Positions 1,630 through 29,373 of a DNA stretch of 40,742 nucleotides are shown here, piece by piece. The stretch is from Candidatus Omnitrophota bacterium (lineage in GTDB: Bacteria; Omnitrophota; Gorgyraeia; Tantalellales; Tantalellaceae), in NCBI GenBank assembly GCA_015233235.1, contig JADFYD010000002.1:1-40742 (forward strand), in the 5' to 3' direction. The notes under the pieces are model-generated. The model searched no databases. It was not told the DNA's origin and worked only from the letters and a program-made list of their open reading frames with translations. The translations under genes were made by a program, and so were the position numbers. The stretch's first letter is position 1, and each line of letters opens with the position of its first letter.

Positions 1630-1673
1630 GTGCTTAACTATATGCCATAACAAAGGTAATCACAAGGATGTCT

Positions 1674-4600
1674 ATGAAAAAGATCATTTCATGTTTTACT
1701 GCCATTATTTTTCTTTGCACTAATTTTTCCTATGCCAATGTTGTAACTATCAAACCTGACAAGTTAGCGCCGCCCCTCATAAGCCAGGAATATCCTATCA
1801 CCCGTACACAGGACACGTTTCGAAACAGTGTGCGAGACAATGTTAAACTTATGACGTTGTCTTTGTACATCGCCGAGTACTATTTTAAGAATACCGATAA
1901 AAGCACCGATCTATTCAATTATCTCACTAAAACTTTGGGTTTTGATTCTACATTTTTACATTCCAGCGGTATCAATTTTGACGATGTAAAATTTGATACT
2001 GACAGGATTGTGCGTGTTTATTTTTCCGACGCGGTGACAGGAGAGCGAGGCGTGATCGGTGTGGCCGATGTCGACGTCGCGGCCTCTTATGCTTTACGTG
2101 ATAAGAGATGGGAGACACTTAGCGCTGATTCTAAATACGTGTTTTTTATCGCGCAATGCCCGGCTCCGGATAGGTCTAAAACCGGTGCTCAAGATCAGCG
2201 TGACCTGAAGGGCACTAACGCCGCAGAGACAAATCCTGAAATCATAGAATTGATAAAAAATAGAGAGTTGGTCGAGCTTTATCTGGATAATGGAACCGGA
2301 GAACTTAAGGCCAGCAGGCTTAATTTTGTTCCCGGATATGTACCCATGAGAACGCCGGTCGATGTATATCGCGGTTTAGAAATGGATGTTTTACAGCTCT
2401 TTACGCCTGATATACAAAAAAACATAATTGAATGGTTAAAAACACATAAGGTACGGGGTGCGCCGGTCAAATTCAGGATAGCATTGGGAAGGATCGGTTT
2501 GAAATGGTCGAATAGCCCTGAATATTCGAACATTATGCATGCCGGCGTGACCGACGGAGTGATCTATACGGGCAGCGCGTTATTGAGGTATCTGTTCACG
2601 GATGGCGATGAGAATCAAAAATTGCAGCGTATGATCCTTGACGAAGACGAGTACCAGCACCTCATCGGTTTACCGCACGGCTCACAGAGTGACGTGAACG
2701 AGCGCATCGAACATGTTAAATTTCTGGAAGCCACTCGAGGTCTGGAACAGATACGCGCGGCGATGCTTCACAACGACGTATATTTCCTGCAAAGCGAACT
2801 GGAATGTTGTCTTGTCCCCGGGGGCACCAGCACAAAACACCTTTTTGAGATACTCGCGGTCTGTAATGATGTCTCGATGAGCTTGCCCTTGTATGCGGTT
2901 GAAAGCAGATATTCCATAAATCATGCCGTATCTCTTCTCGATGCCGACAGACAGGAAATGCTAGTCAAGATATTGAATTCTGATACGGACCTTGTACGGG
3001 CGAATAGAAGTAACGTTGTGATCGAGGATATACTGTTGCTTCTTGCCCAGGAAAAACTTGATTACGATTGGGTGAAAAAATTCGCTCCTGAATTGGAAAA
3101 AAGGACAGTTTGGCAAATATCGCCTGAAATATGGCATGAGGCCGGCGGACTCGCAAGAGTTATGCAGTATCATGGCGCCGGCATGCTTGAACTATTAAAA
3201 AATTCCGATACGAAATTACGTCACATTGAACCCCATTATCAGTACCGCATCGATCCCATCACAAAAGAACCGATACCGTTCGATTACCGGACCGACATTA
3301 CGCACCCGATCGCGAACCTTAAAGATACCGGTATCAGATTTCAGGTCACTGTAGGCGGAAGGCCGGTGAATGTCGCGGTTTCGAGCGGCAAGAACGATCT
3401 TGGTATAGAGGTGTGGCTGATAAGGGATGTGCAGGATAACGGCAAAAGTTTCTACACGCATTCGCTCTACAATTACAGAAGAGAGCCGTTCGAGCATAAT
3501 CCGACAACTCCTACATGGGAAGAGTTCTCGGCTTTTTATTCAAAGGCGTCGCTTGAACTTGTGAGAATAGTTGAGAACCGCGAAAAGAAAGAAAAAGAGG
3601 AACTTAGAGAGGAGTGGAGAGCTCCCGTTCTGCATCTCAATGATTCACAAACCGCGCTTGTTTCGGTATATCGCAAGATCCTACTGGACCAGGAAATGGA
3701 GAAAAAAAGACATAGCGAAAAATATACCATTGACCCGGTATTGGAGGAGGCGATCATATTTTTTACTACTCACACATACAATAATCGCAGGGATTATTCA
3801 CTCGAAGGGCATAGAAGACAATCTGCCATAGATACGCTGAAATTTCTGGATATTCCCGATAAGTACATGGAACTATTCAGGAATTACAAAGAATTTTCTC
3901 CAGGAAATATAGAATTCCGTTATGATATCGCCTCTGGCGGTCTGAGGTCCGCGGATGGGCAAAGCGCCGTTGCCAAGGCCCACCGCGACGATGTAGCTAT
4001 GTTGGACGAATGGTTGAACGACCCGACAAACACTACGGCCCGGCGCTTGTATGAAGACCTTGACGACCCATTTCTAAATGTTGAGATCGCGGCTATCGCT
4101 AATGGCGATCACCGTGAAGCCAGCGCCGAATATTTTAGGAAATACCTGAAAAGAGTGAACCCTATGGCTGATGTTGAACATCCGGTGCCGGCGGAACTAT
4201 TTGCCGCGAAGAGCGAGGCCAAAAAAAATCTGGCCCTTAAACCAACCATTGATATGTCAGGTAATAGGCGTAAGCGGCTTGTCTATTCCTCTGTCGATGG
4301 GGTCATCGATGATGGAAGGGCTTTTCTTGATCAGGAACGCGCCCTTCCGGTAGTTTCATATTCCGGCCGTCTCGTACGTGAAAAGGTCGGAAGGGGCAGC
4401 AACCTTGACAATGGTACCGGAATAGACGGAAGAGGAGCGTTTGACAACACCAATATCAGGGAACTTGTAAAACGAGGGGTGCAGGTCGTTATATTTGGTA
4501 ACGTTCAATCCAATAATCCTGACAGTGATAGATTGAGCCAGGACCTCATTAATTTGGTGGACGAACTTAAACGTGAATCCGAACGGGAACATTATAAGGG

Positions 4601-7274
4601 AAGGTTGATCTTTGTTCCAAGGTTCATGTTGGATGACCAAAGGGCGCTTCTTGCCGCGTCCGATATACAGGTGCAGGATTCTTATCCAAAAACTGAAGCG
4701 GCAGGGTTTACCGAAGCGGACATCGCTGTCAACGGCGGTTTGGAAGTGGCTACTTTACGTACCGGTAAAGACTATAATGAAGGTGTTGGGGAAGGATTAT
4801 TCCAGGCGCAGGGGTGGCCATTCGATTTTGAGAAACTTGGACGCGGTAACACGCTTGTGCCTGAAACTCTCGACTCAAAAGGTTACTTGAAAGTTATGCT
4901 TGCTGCTTTGAGTATGGGGCTGGAAACTCCCGAACACGCCGTTACGCCCGACGAGCTTGTAACCGTGCTGAAGGAAAAACTATGTCATCATCAGGCGACA
5001 TCTGTAAAACTTAGCAGGGTGCTGGAGGCGCGCATAACCGCAGCGGCGTATTTACGTCTGTTCAGTACCACCATTGCGAAGAAAAAAGCCAAGATACTGG
5101 CTCGTAAAAAATATGATGAAGCGCAGAAAGCCGAAAAAGAATACGGCGAGATCTTGCGGAGATTAGCCAAAGATGTTCCGGATGATTATCTGGTTTATAC
5201 GATATGCCGTTTTGTCCTTGAAAACAGGATTGAAAAAGCCGCGAACGCTTTATTTACGAGCGAGCTATTTCAGCGTGATAAGAAGAATTATGAGCCGATG
5301 GCGCAGGTATTTAATAATTTGATCGTTTTTATTAATGAAGGCAAGGTCACTTCAGCCGATGCCAGGAGATTTATCGGTTTACTGATACAGCGGATCAGTC
5401 TTCTGTCGGAACCGGATTCAAATACTAATCCCGGATCGGCGGAGTTTGCCGGAGCTGTTCAACTTATGGCGGCGCAGTCGCTGATGATCATTTCATGGTT
5501 AGAAACAAGGGTGCCCGGCGCCGATAGGATACGGATAACGTCAAACCGCGAAAAGATGGCGCCAAACGTCGACCACGGCGCTTCGTACATAGACGCTTCG
5601 TCACTTCCGGGAAATTTGAAGAACGCAGATTATGTTCATTTAGGGCTAACCGAATCCGCGCCAAAATATGAGAGCAGGATTTATAAGCCGGCTGTCTTTG
5701 ATATGGGGCTTCTATTGTCTGCGATGGGGTCGCCAGTTTACGGTACATATTTGGTTAATAGCGGGTTTTGCGCGATCCCGGAGACCATACAAAATGCTGT
5801 TGACGGCATTCAAATGAAGCCTCTCTTTGAAACAGCGTTTATCCATAATGTTTTCCCCGGATCTTTGCAAACCGTATCACGCGAAACGGGTCATTTTCAG
5901 GGCAGGAACCTAATACTTAAACAGGCCCTAAGCGGCTATGGTGTACAACTTAATGTGGAATACTCGTCAGATGGGATGAAGGCGGGGAAAATATTTGCGC
6001 AATTTATCTACCCCGGCAGTTATTTCGCGGCGCTTCCCGGGCATGTAAGCTATGTAATCAATTTAGGTGATCTGCGATACCGCGGTGTGCAGTGTGAGTT
6101 GCCGATCGATGTGGCCTCGCGTTTTCGGCCGGATTTTAACTTTAGTAACGAGAATTTAACACGTTTTAAAGAAGTGTTTTTAGGCGTTAAATCTCCCTAT
6201 GCCGGCATTTTGACAAATGACAGGATGGGGATGATTAAGACCGGAGATGATGTCCCCGCGCCTGTGTGGGTGGAATCGCTGGATCACCAGATCCGTGAAA
6301 TGTTCGGGATCGACGGTAAAACTAAAAATTTGACCGATTTTTATCTTCTATCCAGACATGGGCAGCAGGAGAATTTCATAAAAAGTTTGGCGACTTTTGT
6401 GCGGTTGCTTATCGCTTCTGGAGGGGACCAGGCAATGACTGTACCGGAGGGTACCGTAAAACCGCAAATATTTACGTCAAGTGAGTTGGCGGAGGTAGTA
6501 GCGCAGCTGAAACAAAAACCCGCTACTCCAGTGTCGTTGGGATTGACCGATGCGTTGAAGACCTATGTTGATGACAATAGGGACAACCTGAGGTACATAC
6601 TTGATAACAAAGACTCGGAAGACAGGCTTATAAGGATACCTCTCGAGTTGATCGAAAGCGTAGGCGTGGAGAATATACGCGGATACTTAGAAGCGATACA
6701 AGCCACTAAACATGGATATCTCGAGATATTTTCTGTTCAAAATCCGCTTAGTATCGGTAACCCGCACAATCTGGTCGTGAAAGATATACCTGAGCATCTC
6801 AAAAAAGAAAAAAGAACGCGTCAAAACACGATAACTATTTTCCCGGTATTTAAAGGTGACAATCTTCCCAAAAGCCAGGTAAATAGGGTTTGGCAGGAGA
6901 GGCTGGGCGGAGAAGACCCAATGAAAACTATTTTGTCTCCGGCCGGGTATAACTATGACAAAGCCGGGATGATACGCAGTATTATTATGGGCCTTCGTTT
7001 GTCAGAAGTCAGCCATATGGCTAATGGCGAAAGCGGTATAGTGCTATCCGATATACTGGCCGATTTCAAAAAACTATATTCAATGCAAAGTGAGGTCAAC
7101 GGCGAATTTAATATTACCGTTGATGATATCCGCAGCCTTTGCGGCGACGTAAATTTTGATACAATGCTGGCCTCTCTTGATAAAATTATAAAACTGCTTC
7201 CTATCTTACCGCTTTCCACTGAAGAGATACGAGAAATTTACGCTTTTGCCCGGCAATCTCTGGTAAGCGCGTAA
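1674..7274 (+). CDS. giant exported protein with a glycogen/starch-synthase-like (GT5-type GT-B) core
   Basis: This protein is about 1,866 residues, beginning MKKIISCFTAIIFLCTNFSYA, a typical Sec signal peptide. I chose ATG 1674 over 1668 because AAGG then sits six bases upstream instead of touching the start codon. Residues about 480-1090 read like a glycogen synthase. WQISPEIWHEAGGLARV matches the N-terminal KTGGL region and VLHLNDSQTALVSVYRK matches the HDWQTALVP region. FFTTHTYNN carries the HN-type histidine and SGRLVREK keeps the Arg and Lys five apart. EAAGFTEADIAVNGGLEVATLRTG matches EPCGLTQ...RRTG. The ADP-glucose Lys of KTGGL is replaced by Glu. Residues about 22-480 and 1100-1866 are unrecognised and predicted soluble. 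An exported nucleotide-sugar enzyme is odd, so it may be a binding or structural derivative. It lies upstream of a TolC/RND set but has its own promoter. Confidence 0.7.
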   Translation: MKKIISCFTAIIFLCTNFSYANVVTIKPDKLAPPLISQEYPITRTQDTFRNSVRDNVKLMTLSLYIAEYYFKNTDKSTDLFNYLTKTLGFDSTFLHSSGINFDDVKFDTDRIVRVYFSDAVTGERGVIGVADVDVAASYALRDKRWETLSADSKYVFFIAQCPAPDRSKTGAQDQRDLKGTNAAETNPEIIELIKNRELVELYLDNGTGELKASRLNFVPGYVPMRTPVDVYRGLEMDVLQLFTPDIQKNIIEWLKTHKVRGAPVKFRIALGRIGLKWSNSPEYSNIMHAGVTDGVIYTGSALLRYLFTDGDENQKLQRMILDEDEYQHLIGLPHGSQSDVNERIEHVKFLEATRGLEQIRAAMLHNDVYFLQSELECCLVPGGTSTKHLFEILAVCNDVSMSLPLYAVESRYSINHAVSLLDADRQEMLVKILNSDTDLVRANRSNVVIEDILLLLAQEKLDYDWVKKFAPELEKRTVWQISPEIWHEAGGLARVMQYHGAGMLELLKNSDTKLRHIEPHYQYRIDPITKEPIPFDYRTDITHPIANLKDTGIRFQVTVGGRPVNVAVSSGKNDLGIEVWLIRDVQDNGKSFYTHSLYNYRREPFEHNPTTPTWEEFSAFYSKASLELVRIVENREKKEKEELREEWRAPVLHLNDSQTALVSVYRKILLDQEMEKKRHSEKYTIDPVLEEAIIFFTTHTYNNRRDYSLEGHRRQSAIDTLKFLDIPDKYMELFRNYKEFSPGNIEFRYDIASGGLRSADGQSAVAKAHRDDVAMLDEWLNDPTNTTARRLYEDLDDPFLNVEIAAIANGDHREASAEYFRKYLKRVNPMADVEHPVPAELFAAKSEAKKNLALKPTIDMSGNRRKRLVYSSVDGVIDDGRAFLDQERALPVVSYSGRLVREKVGRGSNLDNGTGIDGRGAFDNTNIRELVKRGVQVVIFGNVQSNNPDSDRLSQDLINLVDELKRESEREHYKGRLIFVPRFMLDDQRALLAASDIQVQDSYPKTEAAGFTEADIAVNGGLEVATLRTGKDYNEGVGEGLFQAQGWPFDFEKLGRGNTLVPETLDSKGYLKVMLAALSMGLETPEHAVTPDELVTVLKEKLCHHQATSVKLSRVLEARITAAAYLRLFSTTIAKKKAKILARKKYDEAQKAEKEYGEILRRLAKDVPDDYLVYTICRFVLENRIEKAANALFTSELFQRDKKNYEPMAQVFNNLIVFINEGKVTSADARRFIGLLIQRISLLSEPDSNTNPGSAEFAGAVQLMAAQSLMIISWLETRVPGADRIRITSNREKMAPNVDHGASYIDASSLPGNLKNADYVHLGLTESAPKYESRIYKPAVFDMGLLLSAMGSPVYGTYLVNSGFCAIPETIQNAVDGIQMKPLFETAFIHNVFPGSLQTVSRETGHFQGRNLILKQALSGYGVQLNVEYSSDGMKAGKIFAQFIYPGSYFAALPGHVSYVINLGDLRYRGVQCELPIDVASRFRPDFNFSNENLTRFKEVFLGVKSPYAGILTNDRMGMIKTGDDVPAPVWVESLDHQIREMFGIDGKTKNLTDFYLLSRHGQQENFIKSLATFVRLLIASGGDQAMTVPEGTVKPQIFTSSELAEVVAQLKQKPATPVSLGLTDALKTYVDDNRDNLRYILDNKDSEDRLIRIPLELIESVGVENIRGYLEAIQATKHGYLEIFSVQNPLSIGNPHNLVVKDIPEHLKKEKRTRQNTITIFPVFKGDNLPKSQVNRVWQERLGGEDPMKTILSPAGYNYDKAGMIRSIIMGLRLSEVSHMANGESGIVLSDILADFKKLYSMQSEVNGEFNITVDDIRSLCGDVNFDTMLASLDKIIKLLPILPLSTEEIREIYAFARQSLVSA

Positions 7275-13637: not shown

Positions 13638-13922
13638 ATGATGCGTAAAAAGTTCGAGGCAGGATTCAAGGCAAGGGTCGCGATCGAGGCGCTCAAGGGT
13701 GAAAAAACCATAAATCAGCTGAGTTCTGAATACGGAGTTCACCCCAACCAGGTAAGCAAATGGAAGCTTGAGTTGCAAAAAGGAGCGGCAGGTATATTTT
13801 CGGGCAAAAAGGACATGGAAGACGCCGGGCACAGGGAACTGGCGGACAAACTCTATAAAAGTGTCGGCGAACTTAAGGTCGAGAACGATTGGCTTAAAAA
13901 AAAATTGAGCATTTTGGGATAG
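13638..13922 (+). CDS. IS3-family transposase OrfA (HTH_Tnp_1)
   Basis: This 94-residue protein has a helix-turn-helix at about residues 10-45 (FKARVAIEALKGEKTINQLSSEYGVHPNQVSKWK) and a C-terminal leucine-zipper-like helix (LADKLYKSVGELKVENDWLKKKLSILG). This is the usual IS3 OrfA layout for binding the terminal repeats. AGGAGG precedes the ATG by seven bases, and a TATAAT lies at 13609-13614. A run of nine A bases at 13896-13904, within the codons for LKKK, is a slippery site. A -1 shift there enters the orfB frame and would give the fused OrfAB transposase. Confidence 0.93.
   Translation: MMRKKFEAGFKARVAIEALKGEKTINQLSSEYGVHPNQVSKWKLELQKGAAGIFSGKKDMEDAGHRELADKLYKSVGELKVENDWLKKKLSILG
13896..13904 (+). 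promoter_or_regulatory. A9 slippery site for -1 programmed frameshifting (OrfAB)
   Basis: Nine consecutive A bases lie where the orfA frame (CTT AAA AAA AAA TTG) and the open orfB frame overlap. The orfB frame is open from 13898 and reads KKIEHFGIEALIPLIDSDDS before reaching the annotated start, so a -1 slip yields a continuous fusion. Confidence 0.75.
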
Positions 13923-13987
13923 AAGCCCTAATTCCGCTCATTGACAGTGATGATAGTGATTTCAGCGTACGGCAACAATGCCGGCTA

Positions 13988-14887
13988 TTGGGTATAAATC
14001 GATCGACTTTATACTATGAGGAAGTAGCGTTGTCCGAAAGAGACATACTTTTAATGAAAAATCTGGACGAACAGCATACGAAGATGCCGTTTTACGGTGT
14101 GATTAAAATGACCAAGGCCATGAGGGATCGCGGTTTCGCGGTAGGCAAAGACCACATACGAACACTTTTGCGCAAAATGGGCATTGTGGCCATATTTGCC
14201 AAGCCGTACACAAGCAAGGCTCATCCTGAGAATAAGATATTTCCGTATTTATTGAAAGACCTTGAGGTGACGCGGCCGAATCAGGTATGGAGCGCCGATA
14301 TCACGTACATACGGCTAGAATACGGCTTTGTGTATCTCGTGGCTATAATCGACTGGTACAGCCGGTACATAATAAGTTGGAGATTGTCTAACACGTTGAC
14401 GGTTGATTTTTGCGCGGAAGCTCTGGATGAAGCCTTAATGCTGGCAACGCCGGAATTTTTCAATACGGATCAGGGCAGCCAGTTTACCAGTCAGGAATTT
14501 ATCGGCAGGCTGGTCGACAAAAAGATAAATATTAGCATGGACGGCCGTGGCCGGGTATTTGATAATATTTTTATTGAGCGGTTCTGGCGTTCAATGAAAT
14601 ATGAGAACGTTTATCCGAACAACTATCGGAACATAGCCGAGGCAAAAGAAGGACTAAAAAAATATTTTACATTGTACAATGTCGAAAGATACCATGAATC
14701 GCTAGATTACAAAACACCATGGGAAGTATATTCCGGGATTCAGATAAACAAAGAAGTGATCATACCCAAAATCGTACCATGTTCTGACCTGGGTGCGGCG
14801 ATAAAAACGCCGTGTAGCGTAAATGCTGAAGAATTTTTTAGTGACATATTGCTAGAATCTAGAAAAATCGGAGAAAATGAGTTATGA
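13988..14887 (+). CDS. IS3-family transposase OrfB (DDE integrase core)
   Basis: This 299-residue catalytic half begins at a weak TTG. The open frame extends back to 13898, where VRQQCRLLGINRSTLYYE, the standard OrfB N-terminus, continues into OrfA by frameshift. A HTH_21 region at about residues 20-75 precedes the rve integrase core. The DDE triad is visible as WSADITY (first Asp), FNTDQGSQFTS (second Asp) and IERFWRSMKYENVYP (Glu). The sequence ends in a stop shortly before the right terminal repeat. No disruption is visible, so the element may be active. Translation from the TTG alone would miss the N-terminal helix and is probably minor. Confidence 0.93.
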   Translation: MGINRSTLYYEEVALSERDILLMKNLDEQHTKMPFYGVIKMTKAMRDRGFAVGKDHIRTLLRKMGIVAIFAKPYTSKAHPENKIFPYLLKDLEVTRPNQVWSADITYIRLEYGFVYLVAIIDWYSRYIISWRLSNTLTVDFCAEALDEALMLATPEFFNTDQGSQFTSQEFIGRLVDKKINISMDGRGRVFDNIFIERFWRSMKYENVYPNNYRNIAEAKEGLKKYFTLYNVERYHESLDYKTPWEVYSGIQINKEVIIPKIVPCSDLGAAIKTPCSVNAEEFFSDILLESRKIGENEL

Positions 14888-14987: not shown

Positions 14988-15590
14988 ACAAACCCGACTA
15001 CTTTATACATGTGCTACAGTGTTAATGACAACAGTGCCGGTTCATTTACCGCCTGGCTGCCCGTGACTACAAGTTTTAAAGTTCCCTTAAAGCCCGTAAT
15101 CGGCGATGAGCAGATTTATATCAAGTTAAAGGATTTTGCAGGTAACGAATCGATGATCACAAAAACAGTAACGCTAAATAGGCCGGCCGTGCCGGCAATC
15201 CCAGCCGTGAACGGTAAAAGCACTTTTAGCATCGCGAGTACCGCGCAGATAATGGATACAATCGCGGTCAACTTGTCGGCTGTTGATCCGAAAATCGTAA
15301 GTGAATACAAGATCGAATATTCTGTAGATGTAACATATAATCCTTACAGATACCAGGGGAGCTACATAGACCCCGGGTACAAACCAACACATTCCGTAAG
15401 CACTATCAGTACGTCATATGGGGAAAACCCCGGCAGGATATGCTCAGACAGTTTATTGATGTATTATTCGAACTCGACTTATGCGGTGACTGTCGTAACA
15501 TTAAAAGTTCGTATATTTGACACGTTTTTAAATACTTATTCCGATTGGTCAAGTCCCGTTAACGCGACATTCGTCGCTACGCACAACTAA
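14988..15590 (+). pseudogene. 3' remnant of an Ig-like/surface protein gene cut at the IS boundary
   Basis: The open frame begins right at the IS right end (the upstream in-frame TAG is in the terminal repeat) and runs 200 codons to a stop. The ORF track starts at ATG 15009, which has no ribosome binding site. The sequence resembles C-terminal modules of large bacterial surface proteins: SFTAWLPVTTSFKVPLKPVIGDEQIYIKLKDFAGNESMITKTVTLNRP, then a second beta-rich module ending SDWSSPVNATFVATHN. The GDEQIYIKLKDFAGNES stretch is a fibronectin/Ig-like edge often repeated in such proteins. No matching 5' half lies on the other side of the IS, so the gene was truncated together with flanking DNA. It is probably not expressed. 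Confidence 0.6.
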
Positions 15591-15626
15591 TCCGTGGTAA
15601 GCCAGATCAATAAGTTAACATAAGAT

Positions 15627-15811
15627 ATATTATCGGACGTTGCCAAAAAGGCTATTTGGCGAGTCAGCAACGTCCGATAATATGGCGTGGATTATCCGAC
15701 GTTGTGAATTGTTAGCACGGTTATCGCGCAAGCAATTCACAACATCCGATAATCCACGCTTACGTTTGCTGAAATGGCTATGGTAAGTTAGCAATGTCCA
15801 ATAATATTGCG
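15627..15811. repeat. array of three ~62-bp palindromic units
   Basis: Three units begin with ACGTT at 15637, 15699 and 15762, spaced 62 and 63 bases. Unit 1 has 17-bp perfect arms (ATATTATCGGACGTTGC at 15627-15643, inverted at 15667-15683). Unit 2 has 26-base arms with two mismatches (15686-15711 and 15733-15758). Unit 3 is a degenerate copy of unit 1: AAGTTAGCAATGTCCAATAATATTGCG resembles GAGTCAGCAACGTCCGATAATATGGCG. Each would fold as a hairpin with a different loop. No coding frame crosses the array. Confidence 0.75.
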
Positions 15812-15878: not shown

Positions 15879-16268
15879 CTATTTTTCCCCTCGGATATTG
15901 AGGATGAGTTTAATAATGTCGTGCCGTGAGACAATGCCTTTGAGTTTGCCTTCTGCGACTATCGGCACGCGCCGTATGGGGTTTTCGATCAAATATTCAC
16001 ATATATCAACTACGCTGTCGTCCAATGTGAAGGATTTCACGTTGCTGGTCATGTAGCAGTCTACCGTTTGCTTGTCTATGGTCGGTTCGTCGATTAAAAG
16101 CTTCATTATGTCACGTTCACTGATTATACCTATCAGATTATTGGTGTCGTCAACCACCGGAAGTCCGCTTATGTTGTGATCGATGAGCATTTTAGCGGCG
16201 TCATACACTTTAGCTTTGGCTTTGATCGAGAGCACGTTTTTTGTCATCACATCTTCTATCTTGTACAT
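15879..16268 (-). CDS. two-CBS-domain protein
   Basis: This 129-residue protein consists of two CBS domains and little else, at about residues 3-60 (MTKNVLSIKAKAKVYDAAKMLIDHNISGLPVVDDTNNLIGIISERDIMKLL) and 68-126 (MTSNVKSFTLDDSVVDICEYLIENPIRRVPIVAEGKLKGIVSRHDIIKLIL). Stand-alone CBS pairs usually bind adenine nucleotides and regulate a partner. The partner is not evident here, since upstream uvrA has no known link. AGGGGA precedes the start by about four bases. It may be transcribed with uvrA (50-base gap) or from its own promoter in the gap. Confidence 0.9.
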   Translation of the reverse strand: MYKIEDVMTKNVLSIKAKAKVYDAAKMLIDHNISGLPVVDDTNNLIGIISERDIMKLLIDEPTIDKQTVDCYMTSNVKSFTLDDSVVDICEYLIENPIRRVPIVAEGKLKGIVSRHDIIKLILNIRGEK

Positions 16269-16301: not shown

Positions 16302-16331
16302 ATTATACCTGCTTTTTATTACTTATGTAAG
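16302..16331 (-). promoter_or_regulatory. possible promoter for the CBS gene
   Basis: A perfect TATAAT on the minus strand (16302-16307) lies about 33 bases upstream of the CBS start. A weak -35 CTTACA at 18-base spacing falls inside the uvrA 3' end. Confidence 0.4.
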
Positions 16332-19123
16332 GGCGACAGCAGATTTTTTAAATATTCACCCGTGTAAGACGATGTGTTCTCGGCGACTTCTTCGGGTGTG
16401 CCGGCGGCTACCAGTTGGCCACCCTCTTCGCCGCCTTCCGGTCCCAGGTCGATGATATAGTCCGCGGATTTAATAACGTCAAGGTTGTGTTCTATCACAA
16501 GCATGGTATTTCCCGCATTGACCAGGGCCTGCAGAACGTCCAATAATTTGTCTATGTCGGCGAAATGCAGGCCGGTCGTAGGTTCATCCAGTATATAAAA
16601 TGTTTTTCCCGTGGCTTTTCTTGAAAGTTCTGACGCGAGTTTTATTCTTTGCGCTTCTCCGCCCGACAGAGTCGTTGCCTGCTGACCCAGTCTTATGTAA
16701 CCGAGTCCTACTTCGTGTAAAGTTTTCAATTTATTTTCGATCGGCGTGATGTTTTTAAATACATTCAGCGCTTCCTCCACGCTAAGGTTGAGCGCCTCGG
16801 AAATATTCAACCCCTTATAGCGCACTTCTAGAGTTTGGTCGTTGAATCGTTTCCCGCCACAGACCTGGCATTCTACGTAGACATCAGGCAGGAAATGCAT
16901 TTCTATTTTTTTCATGCCGTCTCCGGTGCAGGCCTCGCACCGGCCGCCTTTTACATTAAAACTGAACCGTCCGGGCCTGTAACCGCGCAATTTTGATTCT
17001 GGGAGCATGCTATAAAGCGTTCTAATGTGATCAAACGCTCCGGTATAGGTCGCCGGATTGGACCGAGGCGTACGCCCTATCGGCGACTGGTCGATGACGA
17101 TCACCTTATCGATATGCTTGATCCCATTGATCTTGGTGTGTTTACCCTGCGTCAGTTTCGAGTGATGCAGCTTGTTTGAAAGCGTGTTAAAAAGTATTTC
17201 ATGCACCAGAGTGCTTTTTCCTGATCCGGAAACGCCCGTAACACATGTAAACACATTAAGAGGTATCCTGATGTCTATATTCTTGAGGTTGTGTTCACGG
17301 GCTCCTAATATATCTATGGTTTTAGACATATCCGCGGGGCGTCTTGATTTCGGTGTTTCGATCTTGAGGTCCCCTTTCAGGTAACGTCCGGTAAGCGAGT
17401 TTGGGTTTTTTATAATATCTCCAAGTGTGCCTTCCGCGACTATTTTGCCTCCGTGTTCGCCCGCGCCAGGCCCAAGGTCCACTATGTGGTCGGCTTTGCG
17501 TATAGTCGCTTCGTCGTGCTCGACCACGATCAGTGTATTGCCGAGATCTCTTAGAGCGACCAATGTATTCAGGAGTTTGGAGTTGTCCTTCTGGTGTAAT
17601 CCGATGCTTGGCTCATCCAGCACATACAATACTCCGACAAGTCCGGCCCCGATCTGTGTAGCTAAACGTATACGTTGGTCTTCGCCGCCGGACAATGTGC
17701 TTGTTTTTCGGTTGAGGGTCAGGTAGTCCAACCCTACATTATGCAGGAAGTCCAGGCGGGCGCTTATTTCCTTGATAGAATCGGCGGCTATTTTTTTATC
17801 CGTTTCATCCAATTTTAAATCCCTGAAGAATTCCCTGGCTTCGCGTATCGAAAATTCCGAAACATCATAAATGTTCTTTCCCGATATATACACGGAAAGC
17901 GATTCCGCTTTTAGCCTGCGCCCGGCGCACGCGGGACAAGGCTGAAACGACATGACACCGCTGATCATTTCTTTAATGTAATCGCTTTCTGTCTGGTAAA
18001 ACCTGCGCTCAAGGTTCTGTATCACGCCTTCAAAATCGTGTTCGGGATCGCCGTAAAGAAGGACATTTTTTTGTTCGGCGGATAAAGTGTTGAACGGTGC
18101 CTCGAAATCTATGTCATGATAACGGGAGACTCGGCGAATTTCACGACGGTAGTAAAGCCACAAGCCTTTGCCGCCTTTACGCCAGGGTACGATCGCCTTT
18201 ATTACGGGTTCTGTCTTGTCCGGGACTACCAGGTCAGGGTCTATTTCCTGCTTATTTCCGAGTCCGTTGCATGCCTGGCAAGCCCCGTATGGGCTATTAA
18301 ACGAAAAATTTCGTGGATCAAGTTTTTCAAAACTTACGCCGCACGGTATACACGCGTTGTGTTCCGAGAACAAGAGTTCGGATAAAGGCTTATTTTGGTC
18401 GTTAAGAACAGCGACCTTTAAAATACCGGCGCCTATCCTCAAGGCCGTTTCCACGGAGTCGGACAAGCGCTGCCGAACGTCTTTTTTTATTGTGAGCCGG
18501 TCCACGACAGCCTCGATGGTGTGTTTGATCTTTTTATTGATGTCGGGTATCTTATCGCCGATATCTATGAGCTCTCCGTCCAAACGCACCCTGATGATTC
18601 CATCTTTACGGATATTTTTCATGATATCAACGTGTTCGCCTTTGCGTCCGGAAACGATAGGCGCCAGCAGCATTGTTTTGGTGTTTTCCGGCATTTCCAG
18701 CAGTCTGTCTACGATCTGCTGAGATGATTGTCTTGAGATGTTTTTGCCGCACTTGGGGCACTTTTGGCGGCCGATCCTGGCGAAAAGTACACGGAAATAG
18801 TCATATATCTCGGTCTGTGTGCCTACAATCGAGCGCGGGTTCTTCCCTCCCCTGCGCTGCTCTATGCTGATAGCCGGAGAAAGCCCGTCTATGGAGTCTA
18901 CATGCGGTTTTTGAAGCTGTTCCAGGAACTGTCTGGCGTAGCTTGAAAGCGACTCAACATAACGCCTTTGTCCCTCAGCGTAAATAGTATCAAAAGCTAA
19001 TGAGGACTTTCCTGATCCTGATAATCCGGTGATTATGCAAAGTGTATCGCGCGGTATTTTTAAGTCGATGTTTTTAAGGTTATGTTCTTTCGCGCCTTTT
19101 ATGATTATAAATTCTTTTGCCAT
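16319..19123 (-). CDS. uvrA: excinuclease ABC subunit A
   Basis: UvrA is the damage-scanning ATPase of nucleotide excision repair. The 934-residue product has two ABC ATPase modules with Walker A motifs [34 protein letters not shown] (N-terminal) and [17 protein letters not shown] (about residue 625). Two LSGGE signatures are present ([14 protein letters not shown] and [14 protein letters not shown]). The zinc fingers are intact: CIPC...CQAC and CEAC...CQVC. I start it at [21 protein letters not shown] (19123), as in UvrA proteins generally. The ORF-track extension to 19177 adds 18 residues with no homology. No Shine-Dalgarno is present, and the promoter -10 lies six bases upstream, so the mRNA is probably leaderless. 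Confidence 0.97.
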
Positions 19124-19129
19124 TCGTGA

Positions 19130-19158
19130 ATTGTAGCACATTTTCGTGTCGGTGTCAT
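19130..19158 (-). promoter_or_regulatory. uvrA promoter, predicted leaderless start
   Basis: On the minus strand, ATGACA and TACAAT (each 5 of 6 consensus) are separated by 17 bases. TACAAT is followed by six bases and then the uvrA ATG, so transcription would start at or next to the start codon. No SOS (LexA) box is recognisable. Confidence 0.65.
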
Positions 19159-19202
19159 ACCACAATTTGTAACGCACATGTTCGCGTTTAATGAAAATTA
19201 AT

Positions 19203-24337: not shown

Positions 24338-25630
24338 TTACCGGGTCTTCTCCAAACTTTTAGCGAGCCTTTTTGCCAGTGCGACTATCGTTACGATAGG
24401 CGGAGCGCCGGGTGATTCAGGAAGCACACTGGCATCGCATACATATAAATTCTTGATCTCTGTCTCCAAGTTGTTGTCTACCACCCTACCGATTGCCGCC
24501 GTTCCGCCCGGATGAGCCGATCTTGTCCCGGTAAAAATGATATCGCCGTCCCGTACCCCTGCTTTTAGCAATATTTCTCTGGAAACGGTCGCTCCCTTGT
24601 GAAGTTTATCGTTGTCACGGGCTGTGGGTTTTTTGCTGAACGTTTCATTTGAATTAACGACCCCGGTTTCATCATCTTTGATCTTCACCATTATGCCCAA
24701 CAGGTCCTTATACCGGAATGCTTTAAGTTGTTTTCTTTTCGATAACACCCACCTGGCAACAAGCGGCACGTCGATGTAAGGCGCCATAATAAAGCCGTCA
24801 CTTTGTTGAAATTTGGTGCTCAAACATGCCATTGACGGTTCTTTCCATAAGTTTATGTTTTCATCTTTCATGATGCCGTATGTGACCGTGAATAAGTCGG
24901 AAAAAAAATGCGTCCCGGCATTTTTAATTCCGCTTCGTTGCAGTATCACCGGACTTGAGATCCCCCCCGCCGCTAAGACGACGGTATCGGCAAAGATCTT
25001 TAATCGACCGTCGGTTGTCTCGGCCACTACACCAACGGCCTTTTTTTTATGGATGGCGACAGATTTAACATTTGCGCCGGTGATTAAACGCGTTCCATGC
25101 TTACGTGCTTCGGCGACGAAAAAAAGCGAGGACCACTTCGCTCCGGTCTTGCATCCGAGAACACATACGCCGCATGAGGTGCATTTATCTGGATTTATGA
25201 ACTTAGGCATAGGGCCCATTTCGTACCCCAGTTTATTGGATGAATCCATTATGAGGCGGGAACCCGATCCTATAAGTTTGTTCGAGAGTTTCTGTACATT
25301 AAGGTCCTTTTCGGCGGATTCAAATTCGCGCGATAGGTCGATGCCTTTGTCCCGGAACACTTTTTCGAGTGTCCTGACACCATTTCCGCAGCTTACTACG
25401 GTTGTCCCGCCGACCATGAGTGTCCTATAGACGATCGTGCCTTCTTTGCTTGTTCTTAGGGCGCATTTATCGTAGTGGCTCAACACGGCATCTCGTATCG
25501 AACCAAGATCCTTAGGGGGCATCCCCCTTTCTAAAAGAATTACCTTTCTGCCTTTTTTGGAGAGTTCCTTAGCGACAGTCGCACCGCCGGCCCCGCTGCC
25601 CACAACCACTACGTCAGTTTTTATTTTCAT
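24338..25630 (-). CDS. GMC-family oxidoreductase with CxxCxxCxxxC motif (paralog 1)
   Basis: This 430-residue flavoprotein has the FAD Rossmann motif VVVGSGAGGATVAKELSKKGRKVILLERG at residues 7-36. The GMC C-terminal domain carries the catalytic-type histidine (SAHPGGTAAIG, His373) and the closing LYVCDASVLPESPGAPPIVTIVALAKRLA. A Cys motif CTSCGVCVLGCKTGAKW (Cys150, 153, 156, 160) resembles the CGxCxxGCxxGxK signature I recall from long-chain fatty alcohol oxidases, and the spacing could also ligate a 4Fe-4S cluster. At 430 residues it is shorter than typical GMC enzymes (over 500). No signal peptide is present. The substrate is probably a long-chain or lipophilic alcohol (inference). It lies 31 bases after the reductase gene and is coupled to the kinase gene. 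Confidence 0.87.
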   Translation of the reverse strand: MKIKTDVVVVGSGAGGATVAKELSKKGRKVILLERGMPPKDLGSIRDAVLSHYDKCALRTSKEGTIVYRTLMVGGTTVVSCGNGVRTLEKVFRDKGIDLSREFESAEKDLNVQKLSNKLIGSGSRLIMDSSNKLGYEMGPMPKFINPDKCTSCGVCVLGCKTGAKWSSLFFVAEARKHGTRLITGANVKSVAIHKKKAVGVVAETTDGRLKIFADTVVLAAGGISSPVILQRSGIKNAGTHFFSDLFTVTYGIMKDENINLWKEPSMACLSTKFQQSDGFIMAPYIDVPLVARWVLSKRKQLKAFRYKDLLGIMVKIKDDETGVVNSNETFSKKPTARDNDKLHKGATVSREILLKAGVRDGDIIFTGTRSAHPGGTAAIGRVVDNNLETEIKNLYVCDASVLPESPGAPPIVTIVALAKRLAKSLEKTR

Positions 25631-27972: not shown

Positions 27973-29373
27973 ATGAATAATGAGTTCGAATACATTATCG
28001 TTGGCGGCGGATTGTGCGGGCTCGTTCTGGCAAAAGAATTAGCCGGACGCGGACAGGATGTTCTGGTGTTGGAAAAAGGTAATTACGTGAATAAAATGGG
28101 TACATTGGAAAGAACCCTTTCCTTTTACGATAAGTTTGCTTTAGCAAAAAGTGTTCAGGGTATTCCCATTTACAGGGCTTTTGGAATTGGCGGGACCAGC
28201 CTTATCAGCTGCGGTAACGCTGTTGAGTTCACCCGTGAAGAATATAACAGGATCGGTATAGACATTTTGAGTGAACTCCCGGCGGCAAAACTCGAAGGAC
28301 ATGTCAAAACCGACGGTCTTAATATAGGTAAAGCATCGGCTAAGATCATGGAAGAAGCCAACGCTTTAGGGTATACCATGGGGCCAATGCCTAAGTTCAG
28401 TATGACCGAAAAGTGTGCCTCATGCGGCAATTGCTACTTAGGATGCCGGTTCGGAACAAAGTGGACATCTGTAAATTGCATAAAAGAAGTCCATGCTGAT
28501 CATCTAACGATAGTGACAGGATTTGATGTGGATAAAGTCATTATCTCGCACGGAAAAACAATCGGCATTTCGGGTCAATACGGCAAATCCCGTTCCAAAC
28601 GTAAGTATTTTGCCAATACTGTAATTTTGTCGGCAGGTGGCATAGGAACACCGATCATTTTACAAAAGTCGGGAATAAAATCCGGGGAGAACCTGTTTAT
28701 CGATATTTTTAACGTTACTTACGGCGAATCGAAAGAGTATAAACAAAGAAATGAGCTGTCAATGTCGGTCGTTTGTGATAAATTTCATGTGTCCGACGGA
28801 TTTGTTCTGGCTCCATTTGTCGATAACTGGTATGGATTTTTAGGTTGTGCTGAACCAAAAGACATTGCAAAGGCAGCAAAGATGAAAGGCGTCGTGGGCA
28901 TAATGACCAAAATAGCGGATGATAACATTGGTAGAGTTCATTCTGACAACAAAATAGATAAAAAAATGACGCAAAACGACACTGATAAATTAAAAAAAGG
29001 GACTACAATCGCTACTGAAATACTAACTAAGTGTGGAGTTGAACCAAGAACTATTTTTGTTACTAAGCCTCGTGGTGCCCACCCCGGTGGAACGGCCGCT
29101 ATCGGTAAAGTTGTTAACGGAAATCTTGAGACCGAAATAAAAAATTTATTTGTATGCGATGCGAGCGTTCTGCCGTTCGCCCCAGGCCTCCCGCCAATGT
29201 TATCATTGGTGGCTATGACAAAATGGTTCTGTAAGAATTCTCTTTTAAGAACGAATCGGATCCATGCTGCCTATGAACCGGTATTTACAATTAGTCACCA
29301 AACGATCGATAAGTATGAAGAAGTATCCGCTGGACTAAAAAATAGAACGCGAGCTAAAAAAACGCAGTATTAG
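27973..29373 (+). CDS. GMC-family oxidoreductase with CxxCxxCxxxC motif (paralog 2)
   Basis: This 466-residue flavoprotein is paralogous over its whole length to the one at 24338-25630. FAD site: YIIVGGGLCGLVLAKELAGRGQDVLVLEKG. Shared blocks include GPMPKF, then CASCGNCYLGCRFGTKWTS (Cys148, 151, 154, 158), GAHPGGTAAIGKV (His370) and LFVCDASVLPFAPGLPPMLSLVAMTKW. It has a C-terminal extension of about 35 residues beyond paralog 1. Start: AAGGAGGG precedes the ATG at good distance, and promoter TTGACA-16-TAAACT is close by. The last 39 bases overlap pgpA on the opposite strand. Its role is presumed to be oxidation or reduction of a lipophilic alcohol, perhaps in the opposite direction or on a different chain from paralog 1 (inference). 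Confidence 0.87.
   Translation: MNNEFEYIIVGGGLCGLVLAKELAGRGQDVLVLEKGNYVNKMGTLERTLSFYDKFALAKSVQGIPIYRAFGIGGTSLISCGNAVEFTREEYNRIGIDILSELPAAKLEGHVKTDGLNIGKASAKIMEEANALGYTMGPMPKFSMTEKCASCGNCYLGCRFGTKWTSVNCIKEVHADHLTIVTGFDVDKVIISHGKTIGISGQYGKSRSKRKYFANTVILSAGGIGTPIILQKSGIKSGENLFIDIFNVTYGESKEYKQRNELSMSVVCDKFHVSDGFVLAPFVDNWYGFLGCAEPKDIAKAAKMKGVVGIMTKIADDNIGRVHSDNKIDKKMTQNDTDKLKKGTTIATEILTKCGVEPRTIFVTKPRGAHPGGTAAIGKVVNGNLETEIKNLFVCDASVLPFAPGLPPMLSLVAMTKWFCKNSLLRTNRIHAAYEPVFTISHQTIDKYEEVSAGLKNRTRAKKTQY

Follow-up and report, generated by a model that had tools for sequence, protein, structure and literature searches.

Hairpins derived from XerC half-sites flank a predicted dif site in a Candidatus Omnitrophota bacterium

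What are the palindromes that stand in tandem between convergent genes of a Candidatus Omnitrophota bacterium, and how did they come to be there? The stretch of DNA analysed here (hereafter the window) comprises 40,742 nucleotides of contig JADFYD010000002.1. A sequence-only reading had described, from position 15627 onwards, three units with conserved arms and variable loops beside an insertion sequence, and had likened them to mobile REP-type arrays or recombination sites. Elsewhere, the window contains a 1868-aa ORF (1668-7274), part of which shows a weak match to starch-synthase-type glycosyltransferases, and two similar-looking oxidoreductase genes on opposite strands (24338-25630 and 27973-29373), the second of which matches GMC oxidoreductase.

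The periodicity and the arms described earlier were confirmed. The motif ACGTT occurs at 15637, 15699, and 15762, i.e. at steps of 62 and 63. Perfect arms of 17 bp are present at 15627-15643/15667-15683, and long imperfect arms (86%) at 15685-15719/15725-15759; the latter contain a 27-bp stretch with two mismatches. The right arm proposed as common to all units is present in two of them, as CAACGTCCGATAAT (15668) and CAACATCCGATAAT (15740), and is degenerate in the third, CAATGTCCAATAAT (15792). The palindromes are real: folding of the 231-nt stretch gives z = -8 (0/200 shuffles), and z is -6 and -7.4 for the first and the second hairpin taken as single-stranded DNA. Owing to its decay, the third unit folds no better than shuffled sequences (z = +0.5). 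No ORF of the window's ORF list lies between or within the units, and inspection of the sequence revealed no T-run after the stems.

The feature begins 15 bp further to the left than first described, at 15612, and its first arm there is half of a dif site. When the array was used as the query in a nucleotide search of 59 genomes, the best matches outside its own genome were to this left edge (15612-15642) and not to the array. The 31-mer at the edge, AAGTTAACATAAGATATATTATCGGACGTTG, displays about 90-97% identity class-wide. Of the 19 family genomes, 11 each have a single near-identical copy, and none has the reversed control pattern. It contains the predicted dif (15613..15640, + strand), composed of an XerD-type arm AGTTAACATAA (15613-15623), the centre GATATA (15624-15629), and an XerC-type arm TTATCGGACGT (15630-15640). 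Both arms are 11 bp long, the 6-bp centre is within the expected 5-8 bp, and the TTAT cores are inverted, with the XerD-type arm ending in CATAA and the XerC-type arm starting with TTAT.

The position of this site is that of a replication terminus. GC skew in the window is about +0.1 before dif and close to zero or negative after it. In the relative G003, it is +0.09 to +0.17 over 340 kb and -0.118 in the 10 kb starting at dif (430 kb). The main genes of the window run rightward before dif and mostly leftward after it. Namely, the last rightward ORF before dif (15009..15590, + strand) encodes 193 aa with no Pfam match, while the first leftward gene after the array (15879..16268, - strand) encodes a CBS-domain protein and is followed by uvrA (16319-19177, - strand). 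At least two tyrosine recombinases are encoded in 17 of the 19 family genomes; only one was found in the window's own genome, which is 78%-complete, and none in the 75%-complete G008. Because this layout coincides with single-copy conservation, a switch of skew and gene orientation, and Xer-type recombinases in relatives, the site is almost certainly the dif at the replication terminus of this bacterium, as judged from sequence, position, and conservation. XerC and XerD are the recombinases predicted to act on it. The link to tyrosine recombinases that had been suggested is borne out indirectly, dif being the XerCD target.

All palindrome arms copy the XerC-side half of dif, in either inverted or direct orientation, and evidently derive from it. 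"Recombination sites" was therefore right in kind, since the arms represent one half, the XerC half, of the site at which chromosome dimers are resolved. In the first hairpin, h1 (15627..15683, + strand), dif's own XerC arm pairs with an inverted XerC arm at 15670-15680 within the 17-bp perfect arms, and the pairing extends into the dif centre (ATA/TAT). The second hairpin, h2 (15685..15759, + strand), consists of a direct arm TTATCCGACGT (15692-15702) and an inverted arm ACATCCGATAA (15742-15752). By inspection, a decayed second copy of h1 follows, ACGTTTGC ... GCAATGTCCAATAATAT (15760..15809, + strand; inverted arm 15794-15804), which has GGCTAT in common with the first.

The array was found in four genera of the family, represented by G000 (the genome of the window), G003, G008, and G018, always on the XerC side of dif. 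In each, h1 (the dif arm, a loop, and the inverted arm) is followed after ~10 bp by h2. Tandem copies of this module succeed one another at 113-115-bp steps in G008 and are more decayed the further they lie from dif; the window has the decayed h1 as its second module. Within h1 of each of the four genomes, the three centre bases beside the XerC arm pair with bases past the inverted arm, as ATA/TAT or ACA/TGT, tracking the host's own dif. The flanks of h2 do not match the dif centre, and in none of the four arrays is the inverted arm followed by a recognisable XerD arm. The paired flanks of h2 are lineage-specific, while its arms are common to all. We aligned seven h2 hairpins from five genomes, three of them being tandem copies from one genome, with the flanks placed by hand relative to the arms. 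In this alignment, 84% of cells pair, and 12 of 23 pairs are changed on both sides (0/500 shuffles). Both-side changes amount to 28 cells, although independent events are fewer than cells, vs 10 +/- 2.2 in shuffles and 1-4 in slid controls. Also, an unpaired C:C is located at arm position 6 in six of the seven hairpins. Thus, h2 keeps its stem while its sequence changes.

Among 384 class genomes, h2 at dif was confined to the four array genomes, with one additional h2 in G017; a metagenomic contig, G687, provides a fifth case of hairpins. A survey of the same 384 genomes for h2 with shorter or longer loops returned only the known cases and unstructured chance matches, and viral scans for h2 found none. 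Array genomes occupy three places in the tree of UvrA and PNPase (G000 with G003; G008; G018). The genome that appears to be the sister of G008, G007, has dif without an array. No dif was recognised near the h2-type hairpin of G017, the contig of which also contains toxin-antitoxin-like genes and a partial tyrosine recombinase gene. The genes of this contig (G017:C185, locus L241) include MazE-like and nucleotidyltransferase/HEPN genes in addition to the partial recombinase, and a second, unrelated palindrome (AAAAGCAAAAAGGGGACAGTCC...) is nested in the loop of the h2-type hairpin (1500-1619). In G003 (L035), the array is followed by ~50-bp tandem repeats (GGATTGGCAAATCTCGGGC...) about 170-400 bp beyond dif on the array side.

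Strong hairpins between convergent genes could be transcription terminators or REP-like intergenic hairpins with no link to Xer. This explanation is most improbable and is largely refuted by the presence of the hairpins at dif in four genera: their arms are half-sites of dif and recur essentially only there in the 384 class genomes, no Rfam family reaches its threshold, T-runs are missing, and the genome has no dispersed copies. Searches of the own genome for the arm with <=1 mismatch gave matches only inside the array; with up to three mismatches allowed, the arm pattern gave 61 + 62 matches vs 45 + 49 for the reversed control. The comparison to REP-type arrays was accordingly abandoned, as were REP/RAYT elements and dispersed repeats in general, since dispersed copies are absent from the genome and the units in relatives are confined to dif except in G017. 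Of the two observations that the sequence-only reading had named as speaking against it, the lack of further copies in the genome holds for dispersed copies, but the array does vary among relatives.

Several other classes were considered and rejected. Rfam matches are all sub-threshold, the best being CRISPR-DR50 with a score of 31 vs a gathering score of 47; a CRISPR array was rejected because the would-be spacers have GGYTAT in common. For an integron attC array (RYYYAAC ... GTTRRRY), the order of boxes is wrong, with GTTG to the left and CAAC to the right of each loop; there are no gene cassettes and no ORF between the units. The units are not IS ends either. The IS3-family transposase pair (13638-14887; HTH_Tnp_1 and rve ORFs of 94 and 299 aa) ends ~700 bp to the left of dif and is no part of the array that it had been placed beside.

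The array could also be a functional accessory region of dif, in which extra XerC half-sites or hairpins recruit or order XerC. Its dif-proximal copy is intact while distal copies are decayed, and its stems are kept by paired changes, as would suit such a role. A requirement for accessory sequences is not known for chromosomal dif, however, and the array is absent beside a good dif in five genomes of the family, one of them G007, which is sister to an array genome. A prophage appears, moreover, to have moved the array 41 kb from dif in G687. The array adjoins the XerC arm, i.e. the same side as the accessory sequences of the plasmid sites cer and psi, which impose resolution selectivity (PMC11724359). 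On balance, we consider an accessory function unlikely.

Alternatively, template switching at the terminus may have duplicated half of dif in inverted and tandem form, as a neutral process that involves neither an element nor a function. The arms do copy the adjacent half-site, distal copies decay, and the modules of G008 are plain tandem repeats. Independent random events would hardly yield the same arms and the same C:C mismatch with differing paired flanks in six of the seven h2 hairpins from five genomes, however, and the h2 of G017 lies away from any recognised dif. Neutral duplication appears unlikely as well.

Additional information on the origin of the hairpins comes from G687 (IMG/VR contig 3300035105_000308; IMGVR_UViG_3300035105_000308; L262-L264), in which a dif of this family's type is located at 42.0 kb. 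The 19-bp sequence CATACATTATCGGACGTTG, comprising the centre and the XerC arm, recurs as a direct repeat at 0.8 kb, there adjoined by a divergent XerD side (site coordinates 802-817 and 42023-42038). Terminase, portal, major head, tape-measure, and tail genes are located between the two sites and define a 41-kb tailed prophage. Direct repeats of centre and XerC arm around a prophage are the layout predicted by Xer-mediated integration at dif, and a phage has evidently integrated by an Xer-type route at such a dif in this relative. No recombinase was detected in the prophage with a profile of 30 Omnitrophota Xer proteins; Pfam/PHROG scans for other integrase classes covered part of its genes. 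Beyond the second site are a 24-nt loop, the inverted arm TTGCGTCCGATAATGT, and, about 113 bp on, a decayed copy. The prophage sits exactly between the dif centre and the array, so that the hairpin is now at its far end; the phage itself has none beside its dif-proximal arm. Most simply read, the array adjoined dif first and was later displaced by the incoming phage. The prophage itself is a candidate for a large tailed IMEX, the term used for integrative mobile elements exploiting Xer.

We favour the reading of the hairpins as footprints of IMEX, to which we give about an even chance. The attP of CTXphi arises when two dif-like sites in inverse orientation pair with each other on a single strand (PMC4246890; PMC5357621), and the bases adjoining the XerC site decide compatibility for CTXphi integration (PMC4246890). 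An insertion of this architecture would therefore leave dif followed by an inverted XerC arm and matching centre bases, as in h1. In the proposed scheme, the attachment site of the element would hold inverted dif-like arms, comparable to the folded single-stranded attP of CTXphi, and XerC would join the element at the border of centre and C-arm. Joining would rebuild dif on one side and leave the inverted XerC arm with matching centre bases directly downstream (h1). Loss of the element body and local amplification would then yield a short array, in which the copy at dif stays intact and distal copies decay. We infer the origin from elements, the action of XerC on a folded strand, and the order of these events.

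Several observations favour such footprints: XerC-half arms occur on the XerC side only, the centre bases are paired in 4/4 h1, and h2 covaries. The patchy distribution in the tree, the decay of distal copies in G008 and the window, the h2 of G017 off dif, and the position of the G687 prophage between dif centre and array point in the same direction. As expected of a footprint, the inverted XerC arms pair on one strand, and the bases beside the XerC arm are compatible with the host dif in h1. They are not so in h2, the flanks of which are unlike the dif centre, and the inverted copies have no recognisable XerD arm. An element between or beside the sites was found only in G687, and the array is therefore not classed as an IMEX itself. 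No element with h1/h2 hairpins at its ends was found in our searches, viral scans included; as the units contain no ORF, the body would have been lost in every case. Finally, the hairpin seems older than the phage of G687, which does not carry it. A further proposal is that dif is a growing platform, at which XerC successively captures folded single-stranded hairpins, the newest being beside dif. Such an integron-like terminus array would also be a docking site for integrase-less tailed phages; this is highly unlikely.

Global pattern scans also gave matches in Firmicutes and Bifidobacterium (L064, L066, L073, L079). These are unrelated runs of TTATCGGACAT, which we take to be multiple terminal repeats of an IS. 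Seven Planctomycetota genomes (L065, L068, L069, L071, L072, L074, L075) each contain one pair of complete dif-like sites in inverse orientation, with the C-arms facing each other and the centres CGGACA or CGGTCA, and GAGCNA. Reading of the ORFs at two of these loci, as distinct from a family search, placed the sites next to an accA-like gene. GC skew at the paired sites is too weak to indicate a terminus position, and most genomes with a match in a 294-genome sample reached from one of the cases have only one site. In a 2011 survey, dif prediction failed in Planctomycetes (PMC3025954). Microviruses of Bacteroidetes are thought to use dif via the host Xer (PMC3091885). A 5.6-kb sequence (L219; IMGVR_UViG_3300001528_001060), the ORFs of which look like microvirus capsid, pilot, and replication proteins, has a Bacteroidetes-like dif near one end.

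The site described here very probably locates dif and the terminus for Omnitrophota. Most knowledge of this phylum comes from uncultured genomes, and our literature search found no report of dif for it. An Omnitrophota dif can have structurally conserved Xer half-site hairpins at its flank, and in G687 a dif of this type is evidently used by a large tailed phage in which no tyrosine integrase was detected. If the hairpins are indeed footprints, the arrays record past Xer-exploiting elements and offer a sequence signature for finding such elements in uncultured bacteria.

Comparison with known systems sets the array apart from each of them. The dimeric, inverted dif of Planctomycetota resembles it in having a second, inverted dif-like site at a similar distance with the C-arms facing, but both arms and the centre are kept there and no tandem array is present. 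The accessory sequences of cer and psi, which control XerCD selectivity through PepA with ArgR or ArcA, likewise provide about 200 bp of extra sequence adjoining the XerC arm, whereas the array is made of XerC-arm hairpins and is chromosomal. For the prophage of G687, rather than for the window, the counterparts are the att sites of TLCphi and the gonococcal genetic island: at its second site, centre and XerC arm are kept and the XerD arm is divergent, but the element is a 41-kb tailed phage. The CTXphi-type attP has in common with the array the inverted XerC arms that pair on one strand and the pairing of the overlap bases beside the XerC arm. The array differs in having neither an XerD arm in its inverted copies nor an element body, and its loops of 23-33 nt (three of four genomes) are much shorter than the 90 nt of CTXphi. 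The site itself agrees with dif of the XerCD system in its 11-bp XerD-type arm, 6-bp centre, 11-bp XerC-type arm, single copy, GC-skew switch, and the presence of Xer genes in relatives; what distinguishes the dif of the window is the array of inverted and direct XerC half-site hairpins at its flank.
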